From assembly GCF_028747805.1 (NCBI RefSeq), contig NZ_CP114887.1, positions 241,501 through 305,500 on the forward strand: a stretch of DNA of 64,000 nt. Reading direction: 5' to 3'. Below are positions 6,190-57,326 of this stretch, in pieces. Each line of letters begins with the position of its first letter. Within the stretch, counting starts at the first letter, position 1. A program made the position numbers and the translations under genes. The notes under the pieces are model-generated. The model worked only from the letters and a program-made list of their open reading frames with translations. It was not told the DNA's origin and ran no database searches. This DNA is from Solibacillus daqui (lineage in GTDB: Bacteria > Bacillota > Bacilli > Bacillales_A > Planococcaceae).

Positions 6190-6432
6190 CCTCATGAAAA
6201 AGTGAGGTAGAGGTCGCGACCATTATAATTAGTATAGCTGAGATTGAGGAGAATCGGTGAAGCTTTATGAAAGGAATGGTTGCCGAAGTGTTGTTTTTCT
6301 TCTTAAAAACAATGCTGGGGCTGTTTCCGATAAGGAACAGAACTGTCACATGTGTCGCGCATGTGTTGAGCTATCTTTCAAGTTTTGAGGTTTATAAAAG
6401 CCGTCACATAACTTGTGGCGGCTTTTCTTTTT
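6190..6432 (+). promoter_or_regulatory. Lysine riboswitch (L-box) with terminator, controlling lysP
   Basis: The 5' side AGGTAGAGGTCGCGA, the AGTATAGCTGA segment, GAAAGGAATGGTTGCCGAAG and the downstream GGGGCTG element match the lysine aptamer core in order. The P1 helix closes between AGGTAG (about 6205) and CTATCT (6371-6376), with one G-U pair. About 20 bases later the terminator pairs AAAGCCGTCACA with TGTGGCGGCTTT (6397-6426) and is followed by TTCTTTTT. Established behaviour of the class is that lysine binding stabilises the aptamer and ends transcription. The next gene is a lysine permease, which fits. A 66-aa antisense ORF across it is a shadow. Confidence 0.92.
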
Positions 6433-9336: not shown

Positions 9337-9485
9337 ATATACGCAAAAACCGAACATTAATATTCCAAAAACCGTATTTTTTATCAAATTTCCGAAAAAT
9401 ATGAATAATATTATTATTTAAAGGTTCTTGCAATTCGGTTTTCCCATGATTATAATTGGAACATTCATAAACTTAAATTTCATAA
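9337..9485. other. Intergenic stretch before the guanine riboswitch
   Basis: AT-rich sequence with no ORF. The promoter of the xpt-pbuX transcript should lie here, but I could not choose a convincing -35/-10 pair. Confidence 0.4.
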
Positions 9486-9690
9486 CTTTACTCATATAAT
9501 AGCAAGGATAGGCTTGCAAGTTTCTACCGATTTACCGTAAATAAATCGACTATGGGTAAGGCAGGTTTAACTAATGTATTTGTCCAATTATTTTCTAATA
9601 TTTGAACCGTCATTCGTTATTACTTTTGAATCTACTCGAAAGTTCTTGCTTTACTCATTGATTGAGAAAGCAGGACTTTCGGGTTTTTTA
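9486..9690 (+). promoter_or_regulatory. Guanine-class purine riboswitch with terminator, controlling xpt-pbuX
   Basis: The aptamer (about 9488-9559) reads TTACTCATATAAT..., then GTTTCTACCG and the closing GACTATGGGTAA, which are the conserved purine-riboswitch elements. P1 pairs TTACTC with GGGTAA. The discriminating base in GACTATG is C, the guanine/hypoxanthine form; adenine riboswitches carry U. A long terminator stem follows (CGAAAGTTC...TTGCTTT with AAAGCAGGACTTTCG, about 9637-9682) ending in GGGTTTTTTA. The ligand prediction agrees with the downstream xanthine salvage genes. Confidence 0.95.
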
Positions 9691-14563: not shown

Positions 14564-15955
14564 TTACTCTGCATTTGGGTAAATCATCGTTGCTGGGTCT
14601 ACGTATTGATCGTATTGTTCTTCAGTTAATAAACCTGAAGCTAAAGCCGCTTCTTTTAATGTTGTTCCATCTTTGTGTGCTGTTTTCGCGATTTTTGCTG
14701 CGTTTTCGTAACCGATGTATGGATTTAATGCAGTAACAAGCATTAAAGAATTTTTTAAATTATTATCGAGTACTTCTGAATTTGGTTCAATACCAACTGC
14801 GCAGTTATCGTTGAAGCTTTGCATCGTATCTGCCAGTAAGCGAGCTGATTGTAAGAAGTTATAAATAATGACAGGTTTGAATACGTTTAATTCAAAGTTT
14901 CCTTGGGACGCAGCAAATCCGATTGCTGCATCATTTCCGAACACTTGGCAAGCGACCATTGTCATCGCCTCTGATTGCGTTGGATTCACTTTACCTGGCA
15001 TGATGGATGAACCTGGCTCGTTTTCTGGGATGGTAATTTCGCCGATACCAGAACGTGGACCACTTGCTAACCAACGAACGTCATTTGCGATTTTCATTAA
15101 GTCAGCCGCTAACGCTTTTAACGCACCATGTGCAGTCGTTACTTCATCATGCGAAGTTAATGCGTGGAATTTGTTTTCAGCAGTAATGAAATTTTTCGCT
15201 GTATAAGTGGCGATTTCTTCAGCAACCATTGCACCGAATTTCGGGTGCGCGTTAATGCCTGTACCAACAGCTGTACCACCGATTGCTAATTCTTTCATGA
15301 AGTCGCTCGTTACCTGAATCATTTTTTCAGATTTCACAAGCATATGCGTCCATCCTGAAATTTCTTGACCTAACGTAAGTGGTGTCGCATCTTGTAAATG
15401 CGTACGACCGATTTTAATGATGTCTTTAAACGCTTCTTGCTTTTGTTGTAACGTTGCCTTTAATACGTTTAGTTTAGGTAATACTAAATCTTCTACCGCA
15501 ATAACAGCCGCCACGTGAAGGGCAGTAGGGAATGTATCGTTTGAGCTTTGTGACATGTTGACATCATCGTTTGGATGTACCTTTTCTTCCGAGCCTTGCT
15601 CAGTTAAAAGTTGGTTAGCTCGGAATGACAGTACTTCGTTTACGTTCATGTTCGATTGTGTACCTGAACCAGTTTGCCAAACGACAAGAGGAAATTGATC
15701 ATCGAGCTTACCTGCTAATACTTCATCAGCTGCCGTAACGATGGCCTTTGTTTTAACATCTGATAATTTGCCTAGTTTGTTGTTAGCGAGTGCACAAGAG
15801 CGCTTTAATATCGCAAAAGCATGAATAATTTCAATTGGCATTTTTTCTGTGCCAATTTTAAAATTTTCTAAACTGCGTTGTGTTTGTGCTTTCCAAAGCT
15901 TGTCTGCGGGTACTTTAATTTCACCCATTGTGTCTTTTTCAATACGATATTCCAT
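14564..15955 (-). CDS. fumC: Fumarate hydratase, class II
   Basis: TCA-cycle enzyme that interconverts fumarate and malate without an iron-sulfur cluster. The 463-aa length is typical. The superfamily signature [11 protein letters not shown] is present (near residue 317), as are [15 protein letters not shown]-like and [14 protein letters not shown] segments that form the active site. ATG 15955 with AGGAG nine bases upstream gives the usual [13 protein letters not shown] start; the two TTG codons before it are less likely. A Fur-box promoter lies about 210 bases upstream but is separated from fumC by a terminator, so it more likely drives a small RNA. Confidence 0.95.
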
Positions 15956-16000
15956 TTTCAACAACTCCTTTTATATAGGTATGCCCAATATGTAGCTATG

Positions 16001-39087: not shown

Positions 39088-39300
39088 GGGGTGTCCGAGA
39101 AGTGATTCTGGGACACCCCCTTTGCGCCGAGGATGGAGGCCAGCACGATGCTGGTCATGAATGCGTTGTCACACGATGTGACGGTTTTAGCATTCGTTCC
39201 TATTTCGACCACCGCAGAAGCACCGCCAGCAGCGGATAATTAATACACGAACGAAGCACTGCGCGAGAAGTATTTACTTTTCGCGCAGCCCCTTTGTGTT
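39088..39300. repeat. R3 modular repeat, longest copy
   Basis: Begins with a terminator-like hairpin (GGTGTCC...GGGACACC) after the ligase gene, then GCGCCGAGGATGGAGGCCAGC, a CAGCATCGTGCTG-type hairpin, an inverted module GAATGC...GTCACA/TGTGAC...GCATTC, GCAGAAGCACC and a final GCGCGAGAAGTATT hairpin. Pieces recur at 43607, 46797, 54640, 56298 and 57403 in either orientation. No ORF is present. Confidence 0.75.
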
Positions 39301-44904: not shown

Positions 44905-45045
44905 TTAAATATTAGCTAGCATACTTATGTAAGCAGCCACATTGCCGTAGTTATTATAGAAAGTTTTAAACCACCACTCCTCAAAGTGGGTGTTCGCAAA
45001 TGCTATCCTGTCTATCCCAGAGTCAAAAGAGTCCGGGCACGCCAT
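44905..45045 (-). CDS. Possible 46-aa protein in a structured small transcript
   Basis: An open frame from ATG 45045 (MACPDSFDSGIDRIAFAN then ...HFEEWWFKTFYNNYG and ending SMLANI) looks protein-like, with GC content above its surroundings. Its ATG has only a weak ribosome binding site; ATG 45054, in another frame, has GGGAG at good spacing but encodes just 13 codons. The same bases also fold well: AAGTTTTAACC (about 45090) pairs with GGTTTAAAACTT (about 44965), GCTACGTTG (about 45113) with CAATGTGGC (about 44939), and there is an inner CCCGGA..CTGGG hairpin. It may be a small gene, a structured RNA or a decayed gene. Confidence 0.35.
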   Translation of the reverse strand: MACPDSFDSGIDRIAFANTHFEEWWFKTFYNNYGNVAAYISMLANI

Positions 45046-45125
45046 TCCAACATCGATGTAAAACTCCCTGTATAAGTATAAAGGTTAAAACTTAATATTC
45101 GTACGTACAACGTAGCCTTATTGTT

Positions 45126-54639: not shown

Positions 54640-54775
54640 TGGTGGTTACAAGTAAAAAACGAATGCTAAAAACGTCACGTCCTGTGACTACTCATTCATG
54701 ACCACCTTTTTACTAGCATAATTCTTCAGAGCAAAGTGAGTGTCCCAAAAGTGATTCTGGGACACTCACTTTATT
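54640..54775. repeat. R3 repeat copy between the AmhX-like and FhuF-like genes
   Basis: Contains CGAATGCTAAAAACGTCACG and CTCATTCATGACCACC, which match the reverse complement of 39155-39210, and ends in the hairpin GTGTCCCAAAAGTGATTCTG...GGGACAC (54739-54770) seen at 39093. The hairpin lies at the 3' end of the FhuF-like gene. Confidence 0.72.
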
Positions 54776-55490
54776 ATTTAATCGGACAAAAGCCACAAGC
54801 CATTAAGCCAGGGATATCTTTTGAGAAGCAGCAGCTTTTACGAACTGGTTGATTTATTAGCGCAGATGGACTTTTGCCACCTGTGTAATTTAAGAATAAT
54901 GATTTATCTGAGAAGTAACGCCATACATTTTTTTCTTCTAACATATCTAAATCCTCAAATGCACGGTCTGCCAAAGCCGGCTTGGCAAGTAATGTGTGGA
55001 AATGCCACAGCATATAACCAAAAATATTTTCCCACAATATTAAAGGAGAAATTGATGTCGTTTTGCGTAATTGCCCGATGACTACGGACGTTTTATATAA
55101 AACATCTGACATAACACGCTCACGTTCATCATCTTCTACATAGCGAAAATCATTTGGATTGATGTACATGCCGAGCGTATGTATGCCGAATTCAGGAACC
55201 ATTGCAAAACGTAAATCTTCGGGCTTTCCATCCCAAACTTCATCGTAGGTTGTGAGCATATAAAACTGCATTGCCACAAACATACCGTAGCGACGACCAA
55301 AATGAGAAATCGCCGCTGCCTCTGTTGCAGCATTTGTAATACCCATCATTAAATTAAGAAAATCTGTTAAATAAAAATCTTTATGCAAATTCGCTAATGT
55401 AAAAAGCGGACGCTGCGGTTCTTCGGTAAAAATACTATATGAATTTAATTGACGTACTTGATCGTATGAAAGTGCAGGCACTAAAATCAC
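54774..55490 (-). CDS. FhuF-like ferric siderophore reductase with C-terminal [2Fe-2S] site
   Basis: A ~238-aa cytosolic protein. Its C-terminus carries CC-x10-C-x2-C (CCFSKDIPGLMACGFC), the exact FhuF cluster signature, preceded by ALINQPVRKS as in FhuF-type proteins (typically RxxCC). It probably releases iron from ferric siderophores by reduction. The start is unclear: GTG 55490 or GTG 55481, the latter with AAAGGTG at 6 bases. No siderophore transport gene is adjacent, but the second Fur-box RNA lies 550 bases away. No Fur box was seen at this gene itself. Confidence 0.75.
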   Translation of the reverse strand: MILVPALSYDQVRQLNSYSIFTEEPQRPLFTLANLHKDFYLTDFLNLMMGITNAATEAAAISHFGRRYGMFVAMQFYMLTTYDEVWDGKPEDLRFAMVPEFGIHTLGMYINPNDFRYVEDDERERVMSDVLYKTSVVIGQLRKTTSISPLILWENIFGYMLWHFHTLLAKPALADRAFEDLDMLEEKNVWRYFSDKSLFLNYTGGKSPSALINQPVRKSCCFSKDIPGLMACGFCPIK

Positions 55491-55588: not shown

Positions 55589-56017
55589 ATGCCGAAACCG
55601 ATTTCGATTCCGCGACCTTTAGTTCGTGTCAATCAATGGACCATTTTTATTTCGGTTGTTTTAACATGGATTACAGGGCAGTACTGGCTTTTAACGATTC
55701 CTTTAGTGGCTAATCTACTTGGTGTTTTAACTGGATTTAATCCGATTATGCGTATTGCCAAGCTTTTTTTAACGAAGGAAATAAAATCATATATTCCAGA
55801 AGATATCGGGCAACAAAAATTTAATGCAACAATTGCCTGTGTATGTTTAGCGGGTGGGCTATTAGGATTTTTGCTAGATATATCAGTAATAGCTTATAGT
55901 TTTACCATTATGGTAGGACTTGCGTCATTTATTGCAATTCTAGGTTTTTGTATTGGGTGCTTCCTTCATTTTCAACTGAAGCAATTTCAATATCGTAACT
56001 TCTTAAAAAATTCTTAA
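55589..56017 (+). CDS. DUF4395 integral membrane protein
   Basis: A 142-aa protein with four hydrophobic segments (about 18-50 in two parts, 85-105 and 108-130). The start PKPISIPRPLVRVNQWTIFI and the GFNPIMRI stretch are typical of DUF4395 proteins. AAAGGTTGG precedes the ATG. Function is unknown; in other Bacilli it is sometimes next to thioredoxin-like genes, which is not so here. Confidence 0.8.
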   Translation: MPKPISIPRPLVRVNQWTIFISVVLTWITGQYWLLTIPLVANLLGVLTGFNPIMRIAKLFLTKEIKSYIPEDIGQQKFNATIACVCLAGGLLGFLLDISVIAYSFTIMVGLASFIAILGFCIGCFLHFQLKQFQYRNFLKNS

Positions 56018-56035
56018 AAAAGTATAGAAATTGTA

Positions 56036-56064
56036 TTGACAGTGATAGTGATAATCATTATCAT
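56036..56064 (+). promoter_or_regulatory. Promoter overlapped by a perfect Fur box
   Basis: -35 TTGACA (56036-56041), 17-bp spacer, -10 TATCAT (56059-56064). The spacer and -10 contain TGATAAT-C-ATTATCA (56049-56063), a perfect 7-1-7 Fur palindrome, extended upstream by a further GTGATAG. Repression by Fur-Fe(II) is expected. Confidence 0.85.
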
Positions 56065-56070
56065 ATAAGG

Positions 56071-56294
56071 TATAGCAAGAGCTTATTTGTAATTCAGTAC
56101 AAGTAAGTCCTGAGCTAACCTACTTTTCTCCAGGAGTAAGTTAGCTTAGGTATAACATTCTAAACCCCCTCATTTAGAGTGTAGTTTGACTTTGTTCAGA
56201 CTTGAGTTTTTCACCCTTTATATTTTTCTTCAAAGTTGTACTTCCTGTTTGGAAGACCTTTTCCCGTATCTTGCATAGATGCGGGATTTTTTAT
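56071..56294 (+). ncRNA. Putative Fur-regulated small RNA, FsrA/IsrR-like design (candidate 2)
   Basis: A ~224-nt transcript from the Fur-box promoter to an intrinsic terminator, with no plausible ORF. Hairpin 1 (56111-56148) is a 14-bp stem with one mismatch whose loop is UUUCUCCAGG, an anti-Shine-Dalgarno. Hairpin 2 (56157-56180) is an 8-bp stem AUUCUAAA/UUUAGAGU that displays CCCCCUCA in its loop. The terminator CCCGUAUCU/AGAUGCGGG is at 56263-56285, with UUUUUU after it. C-rich loops that block ribosome binding sites are how FsrA (Bacillus) and IsrR (Staphylococcus) spare iron. The same layout occurs at 16001-16157. Not a proven homologue. Confidence 0.68.
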
Positions 56295-56297
56295 TAT

Positions 56298-56372
56298 GAC
56301 TAGCTTCGTGCTAGCCTCCATCATCGGCGAAATGGGTCTACCCCAGAATTACTTCTCGGGCAGACCCGTTTT
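56298..56372. repeat. R3 repeat copy overlapping the end of the efflux gene
   Basis: AGCTTCGTGCTAGCCTCCAT, CATCGGCGAAATGGGTCT and CAGAATTACTTCTCGGGCAG match the reverse complement of 39093-39150. The hairpin GGGTCT.CCC/GGG.AGACCC (56334-56370) includes the stop codon and last few codons (GLPEK) of the minus-strand efflux gene. Confidence 0.75.
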
Positions 56373-57326
56373 TGTGATAGCGAGCTGTTTTTTACTTTCG
56401 AGTATTGTATGGTAACTATGTAGTAACATCCCGATAATAATGACTGTTAAGCCCGCTAATGCAATTGGCTGTGGTAAAGGTACGCTTAGTAATACCATTT
56501 CTCCAATCATCGCAAATAGCACTTCAGTTGATTGCGTTGCTTCAACGGCTGCCAGTTTGCCTTGGTTATGTCGTACACGGTCCGTCGCAATGAAAAACAA
56601 TACCGTCGCAATAACACCTGAAGACACTGCAACGAGTAATGATTGAAATACTTGGTTGGAAGAGGGGACACCTACTGTCAACAATGCATAAATTGCAAGA
56701 ATAATCCAAGCAGGAAGCGAAGCAATGGTCATACCAAGTACTCGCTGAAACGGATCTACACGTCCGCCACACAGTTCCATCATTTTACGATTCCCTAGAG
56801 GATAAGCAAAAGCCGCAACGACAACCGGTAAAATTCCAAGGAGTAGACTTTTGGTTGAAACGCTTTGTGCTTGTGGTATTTGAATCATTAAAATACCGAT
56901 TAAAATAATGCTCGAGATGCCAAGTGAAATGAGCGGGATTTTGGCACGAATGGATTGACCAGCAATGACTGTTACAAAAAGTGGGGCAAGTAGCACACCA
57001 GCCACAATCGTAAATTGCCATGTACCTGATACGAGCCATCCCGGTCCAAACGCTGCTGCGAACGTTAGTGGTGCGTAAAATAGTACGAAACCAACAAAAC
57101 TCCAAATCACCCAAGCCCATGGATGTTGCTTCATCTCAGAAGTCATGATACGAAAACCATTATTTCCACGTATTGCGACGATAGCAATTAAAAACGGTAG
57201 CATAAAGAAATACCGTAGTGAGGAGCTCCATAACCAACTGCCACCCTCAAGCTCCATCGAATGATTTAATACGAATGTTACAGCAAAAAACAGTGCTGCT
57301 AAAATCCCGATTAATATTTCCTTCAT
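56349..57326 (-). CDS. Multidrug resistance efflux transporter, EmrE-like DMT family
   Basis: A 325-aa protein with ten hydrophobic segments, in two halves, of the drug/metabolite transporter superfamily. ILAALFFAVTFVLNHSMELE at the N-terminus and GGSWLWSSSLRYFFMLP are typical of the multidrug efflux group (PF13536-like). The last five codons lie in an R3 repeat hairpin, so the C-terminus appears to have been reshaped by repeat insertion. The ATG follows GAGGTGCAG. Confidence 0.8.
   Translation of the reverse strand: MKEILIGILAALFFAVTFVLNHSMELEGGSWLWSSSLRYFFMLPFLIAIVAIRGNNGFRIMTSEMKQHPWAWVIWSFVGFVLFYAPLTFAAAFGPGWLVSGTWQFTIVAGVLLAPLFVTVIAGQSIRAKIPLISLGISSIILIGILMIQIPQAQSVSTKSLLLGILPVVVAAFAYPLGNRKMMELCGGRVDPFQRVLGMTIASLPAWIILAIYALLTVGVPSSNQVFQSLLVAVSSGVIATVLFFIATDRVRHNQGKLAAVEATQSTEVLFAMIGEMVLLSVPLPQPIALAGLTVIIIGMLLHSYHTILESKKQLAITKTGLPEK

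Follow-up and report, generated by a model that had tools for sequence, protein, structure and literature searches.

The window examined here is the whole 64-kb length of DNA analysed, which occupies positions 241501-305500 on a chromosome of 4.1 Mb. Our analysis indicates that one stretch of it is, with high probability, a genuine sRNA gene that is switched on when iron is short and is kept across the family of Lysinibacillus, Solibacillus, Kurthia and their relatives. As judged from sequence, the RNA probably pairs with the ribosome binding sites of mRNAs for iron-using enzymes and thereby keeps these from being translated. The locus combines a promoter, a Fur box, a terminator, a covarying structure, invariant loops and family-wide orthology, and has no conserved open reading frame. 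We put at about 80% the probability that it is a stand-alone sRNA gene representing a new RNA family restricted to the Planococcaceae/Caryophanaceae, repressed by Fur and sparing iron through the pairing of its loops with ribosome binding sites.

We infer that the RNA is transcribed, that Fur represses it, and that it pairs with and represses its targets, in the following way. Fur together with iron would block the sRNA promoter; when iron is scarce, the RNA would be made and its three core hairpins and terminator would fold, presenting the C-rich loops CUCC and CCCCCUCA. These loops would then pair with the G-rich ribosome binding sites of iron-enzyme mRNAs, with gltB as the best candidate, followed by sdhC, citB, qcrA and hemA, and the translation of iron-using enzymes would be stopped and iron spared.

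Promoter, terminator and fold of the RNA

The earlier note on this DNA had described a sigma-A promoter with 17-bp spacing, a perfect 15-bp Fur palindrome lying over it and an intrinsic terminator at the end of the transcript, and all three are present (Table 1). The promoter agrees with the consensus at 11 of 12 positions, which is the top score within the 2.5 kb scanned. The perfect TGATAATnATTATCA palindrome has a single exact copy within the window, the one that overlaps this promoter; at up to two mismatches, the window holds four matches to the Fur palindrome, versus 1.2 expected by chance.

Table 1. Features of the sRNA locus and of a second candidate RNA, numbered from the first letter of the window.
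Feature	Position	Strand	Basis or remark
Sigma-A-type promoter, TTGACA-17-TATCAT	56036..56064	+	Consensus scoring; kept upstream of homologues
Fur box, perfect 7-1-7 palindrome TGATAATCATTATCA	56049..56063	+	Overlapping second heptamer pair from 56043
Predicted sRNA transcript, ~224 nt	56071..56294	+	5' end inferred from -10 position
Hairpin 1, covarying stem	56081..56108	+	Folding, alignment
Hairpin 2, invariant apical CUUUUCUCCA, loop CUCC 56128-56131 (anti-Shine-Dalgarno)	56109..56150	+	
Hairpin 3, covarying stem, invariant loop AAACCCCCUCA (loop 56165-56172)	56155..56182	+	
Hairpin 4	56183..56202	+	Limited to the genus and some relatives
Unpaired UUUUUCACCCUUUAUAUUUUUCUUC	56206..56232	+	Kept in own and nearest genera only; missing from Lysinibacillus copies
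Intrinsic terminator	56262..56293	+	10-pair stem 56262-56286, then T6; equivalents in homologues
238-aa protein, no Pfam match	54774..55490	-	Synteny marker
DUF4395 membrane protein	55589..56017	+	Synteny marker
EmrE/EamA-type transporter gene, convergent	56349..57326	-	Synteny marker
Second Fur-controlled C-rich RNA candidate	16192-15998	-	Upstream of fumC, 14564-15964 (-)

The predicted transcript folds with an energy of -73 kcal/mol, compared with -41.4 +/- 4.1 in shuffled sequences (z = -7.6). Folding gives four hairpins ahead of the terminator, and not the two strong ones that had been proposed. The loop sequences ascribed to them stood in part: hairpin 3 of the folded RNA does carry CCCCCUCA in its loop, but UUUUCUCCAGG does not lie fully in the loop of hairpin 2 and is partly paired, because the CUCC loop there is closed by weak U-A/U-G pairs. 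The proposed absence of an open reading frame is right in substance, since the frames found reach at most 37 aa, are unconserved and lack ribosome binding sites. In homologues, the open frames vary in position, length and sequence, and nearly all are without binding sites. The earlier note had set conservation of a reading frame, in place of the hairpin loops, against its own proposal; among relatives it is the loops that are conserved, and no frame is.

Distribution and constraint across the family

Searches of Rfam at gathering and permissive thresholds returned no family for the sRNA, only chance-level matches to unrelated families. Elsewhere, the window holds two Bacillaceae-1 RNAs (RF01690) at 39140-39206 (-) and 54650-54707 (+), the second barely over the cut-off, as well as an ordinary lysine riboswitch at 6200-6381 (+), a purine riboswitch at 9472-9572 (+) and a 6S RNA at 44930-45121 (-).

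A DNA search found the sRNA in all 14 further genomes of the same genus in our sample. A covariance search of relatives, which the earlier note had put forward as a check, revealed the RNA throughout the family with its Fur box and terminator: a first model, built from 15 sequences, gave matches in 69 of the 200 family genomes searched, covering 11 of 19 genera and 16/16 genomes of the genus. The pattern search of the class described below added two genera to those of the model, and six family genera gave no match by either model or pattern. When the model matches were read singly, down to E ~0.01, nearly all had a Fur box 23-31 nt ahead, a TTGAC -35 element, both loop motifs and a terminator; in nearly all homologues, the Fur box, at -23 to -31, has 0-3 mismatches. 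Two low-scoring matches were treated differently, one (L081), without motifs or Fur box, being rejected as false and the other (L076) set apart as a promoterless extra (third) copy. The model matches L120, L269, L270 and the second in L138, whose positions differed from those of the pattern matches, were left out.

We also scanned 84,980 named species with a pattern composed of a Fur half-site, TTTTCTCCA and CCCCCTCA. Its 58 matches all fall in Planococcaceae-type genera (Lysinibacillus, Solibacillus, Viridibacillus, Psychrobacillus, Caryophanon, Paenisporosarcina, Rummeliibacillus, Kurthia, Metasolibacillus and Metalysinibacillus), a record labelled Bacillus ndiopicus being counted among the 58. 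Neither a similar pattern in 399 genomes of the class nor a broader model (R2) in 300 genomes of a second class-wide sample gave a match outside the bacterial family itself. Copy number varies: in Caryophanon (L074, L075, L080) the copies stand in tandem at a spacing of about 240 nt and every copy has a Fur box to itself, and several Lysinibacillus (L103/L119, L099/L134 and similar) have a second copy at an unrelated site.

The gene order supports a single orthologous locus, as in 76 of 86 loci, taken from across the family, the 238-aa protein adjoins the sRNA. Among the loci compared, the nearest named relative is Solibacillus palustris, with 93-100% identity in the flanking proteins. This gene order also bears on whether the stretch could be a leader or riboswitch-like cis element, or else a small protein gene. 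Strong structure and a terminator are typical of leaders too, but the next downstream gene is convergent, and therefore the sRNA is not its leader; with this order kept in relatives, the leader reading is close to refuted. What is conserved are loops rather than a riboswitch pocket, and a protein gene would be at odds with the lack of a conserved frame, so that we find any of these readings scarcely credible and retain that of a stand-alone sRNA gene.

Conservation within the RNA is divided between stems and loops. In a 35-sequence alignment, two-sided changes occur in 34 of 40 pairs, two-sided-change cells number 226 versus 68 in shuffles (another run was similar) and the covariation score is 0.447 versus at most 0.088 in slid-partner controls, figures that lean toward structure because this alignment was fitted to it. 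In an unfitted alignment, two-sided changes are seen in hairpin 1 too, and in an unfitted one of 24 diverse members most invariant columns lie within CUUUUCUCCA and AACCCCC(C)UCA. Variable stems with fixed loops would be the pattern expected of an RNA whose loops meet partners.

Predicted targets and a second candidate RNA

The targets of FsrA include sdhC, citB and gltAB (PMC12871923), and those of IsrR include gltB2 (PMC9410917). We compared predicted pairings with a background of 409 start regions, taken by simple gene calling from the window and 400 kb of sampled stretches. The proposal that both loops can pair with ribosome binding sites agrees with the predicted pairing of the C-rich loop of hairpin 3, which fits G-rich sites and that of gltB above all (-20.6 kcal/mol, beyond 409/409 background genes). 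Hairpin 2 was discarded as a binder of gltB, sdhC and citB since it did no better than background; the CACCC stretch was likewise set aside, as it fits gltB only (2.2%). The ranks of gltB and of qcrA (1.0%) and hemA (2.0%) are not independent tests, because these genes came out of searches or out of the background list itself, and gltB was first noticed when the complement of the loop was searched for as a pattern. The genes sdhC and citB were chosen beforehand, and their ranks are modest (3.4% and 12%, respectively).

The sites themselves are conserved G-runs: that of gltB (GAAUGAGGGGGAAU) is unchanged in 14/14 congeners, and those of sdhC (UAAGGGGGGUAAC) and citB (UAGGGGGAAC) hardly vary in 16/16, where both genes have G5-G6 sites, compared with background frequencies of 8% for G5 runs and 0.5% for G6 runs. 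Caryophanon and the three nearest genera keep the gltB site as a G6 run, and farther out it is GGAGGG or similar; as a guess, distant genera might rely instead on the CCUCC arm of hairpin 1 or on the CUCC loop. The sdhC G-run is also found in family members where the sRNA was not found, and G-rich sites also precede many genes other than iron genes. Among about 39 genes read at G6 sites across the genome, with 100 of the 138 sites listed, two, judged by eye from the sequence, are clear Fe-S genes (qcrA and a FadF-like gene), which is too few for us to claim any enrichment of iron genes.

It is conceivable that a Fur-controlled sRNA of this kind acts mainly beyond iron enzymes, for example with a small number of siderophore or transport mRNAs as its targets or as a sponge that takes up other C/G-rich RNAs, and the loop-fitting G-rich sites that precede many unrelated genes, including that of a DctR-like response regulator, would agree with this. 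We consider it unlikely, as the best-fitting conserved site is that of gltB, a known FsrA/IsrR target gene, and we thus favour iron sparing as the main role. The site of the response regulator just mentioned, which is DctR/CitT-like (L170, G000:C1 ~1157643, position 1501), is AAUGAGGGGGC; it is complementary to loop 3 (-18.8 kcal/mol), and control of dicarboxylate uptake may therefore be a further target.

The window has one other good Fur box, and this led us to a second candidate RNA (Table 1), with a promoter (TTGACT-17-TATCAT) under the Fur box, a hairpin loop UUCCCCCCAGUU and a terminator (16033-16007) just ahead of fumC. All eight further genomes of the genus with fumC within reach have this RNA together with the Fur box, and the other Fur boxes read in relatives yielded no copies outside the genus. 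A weak RsaD match, which at 28.9 bits stays below the cut-off of 50, covers it. Its loop gives -20.3 with citB, beyond 409/409 background genes, -18.2 with gltB (0.5%) and -17.1 with sdhC (1.7%), and none of these three genes had been selected with the second RNA in mind. This fit makes an iron-sparing reading of the whole locus more likely, and the two RNAs together suggest divided targets; the iron-independent fumarase may be under Fur control too. Tentatively, the Planococcaceae could possess an iron-sparing system of their own, which in this genus would comprise two Fur-controlled C-rich RNAs, unrelated to each other and separated by 40 kb, one whose loop 3 fits gltB best and one whose UUCCCCCCAGUU loop fits citB best, the second sharing its Fur promoter with fumarase. 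If this is true, the shared promoter would act as one switch that turns iron enzymes off and an iron-free replacement on.

Relation to known iron-sparing RNAs

The earlier note had likened the layout to that of FsrA and IsrR. The likeness holds for the predicted Fur control, the C-rich loops and the G-rich sites of known targets, but does not amount to identity with FsrA. The Bacillus subtilis FsrA (RF02273) has a Fur box over its promoter, as does the sRNA described here, and aims C-rich single-stranded parts at ribosome binding sites, much as the C-rich loops would do here. It is, however, an RNA of 83-84 nt with one 5' hairpin, an unpaired C-rich middle and a terminator, in contrast to about 224 nt and four hairpins before the terminator. 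The common regulator, the C-rich loops, the position of the Fur box and the likely overlap in targets could be taken to mean that our sRNA is a divergent FsrA or IsrR orthologue. We regard this as highly improbable, given the other layout of the 83-nt FsrA and the covariance searches: the FsrA model (membership threshold 80 bits) matches nothing in 55950-56450 even with E allowed up to 10, and the family model of our sRNA has none on the coding strand of FsrA. The best FsrA-model match in the whole genome of origin lies elsewhere, at 17.9 bits, and 37 genomes of the same family gave only sub-threshold noise, compared with a true match in a Bacillus-like control. With FsrA not found in the family genomes searched, the sRNA is probably its functional counterpart and not a homologue. 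It is thus a candidate for the missing iron-sparing regulator of a large group of soil bacteria in which no FsrA match over the cut-off was found, and searches of the open-access literature turned up nothing on an RNA of this kind in these genera. The alignment is of sufficient quality to serve as the basis of a new RNA family, and the predicted target pairings are specific and conserved.

Among proteobacteria, RyhB and PrrF are likewise Fur-repressed iron-sparing sRNAs, a likeness drawn from general knowledge and PMC9410917 and not from sequence; they differ in being Hfq-dependent and in belonging to other phyla. The Staphylococcus IsrR (174 nt) is Fur-repressed, has several hairpins with C-rich loops, as are found here, and pairs with the binding sites of iron-enzyme mRNAs including gltB2 (PMC9410917), which resembles the predicted pairing of our sRNA with gltB. 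IsrR has two Fur boxes, compared with one perfect box and an overlapping second heptamer pair here, and is described as conserved within Staphylococcus and not orthologous to FsrA (PMC9410917); neither the pattern nor the model of our sRNA matched a genome outside its own bacterial family. We class the sRNA as a new RNA family whose functional kind is already known; if the proposed role is true, the Bacilli would have arrived at the same solution independently once more, in addition to FsrA and IsrR.
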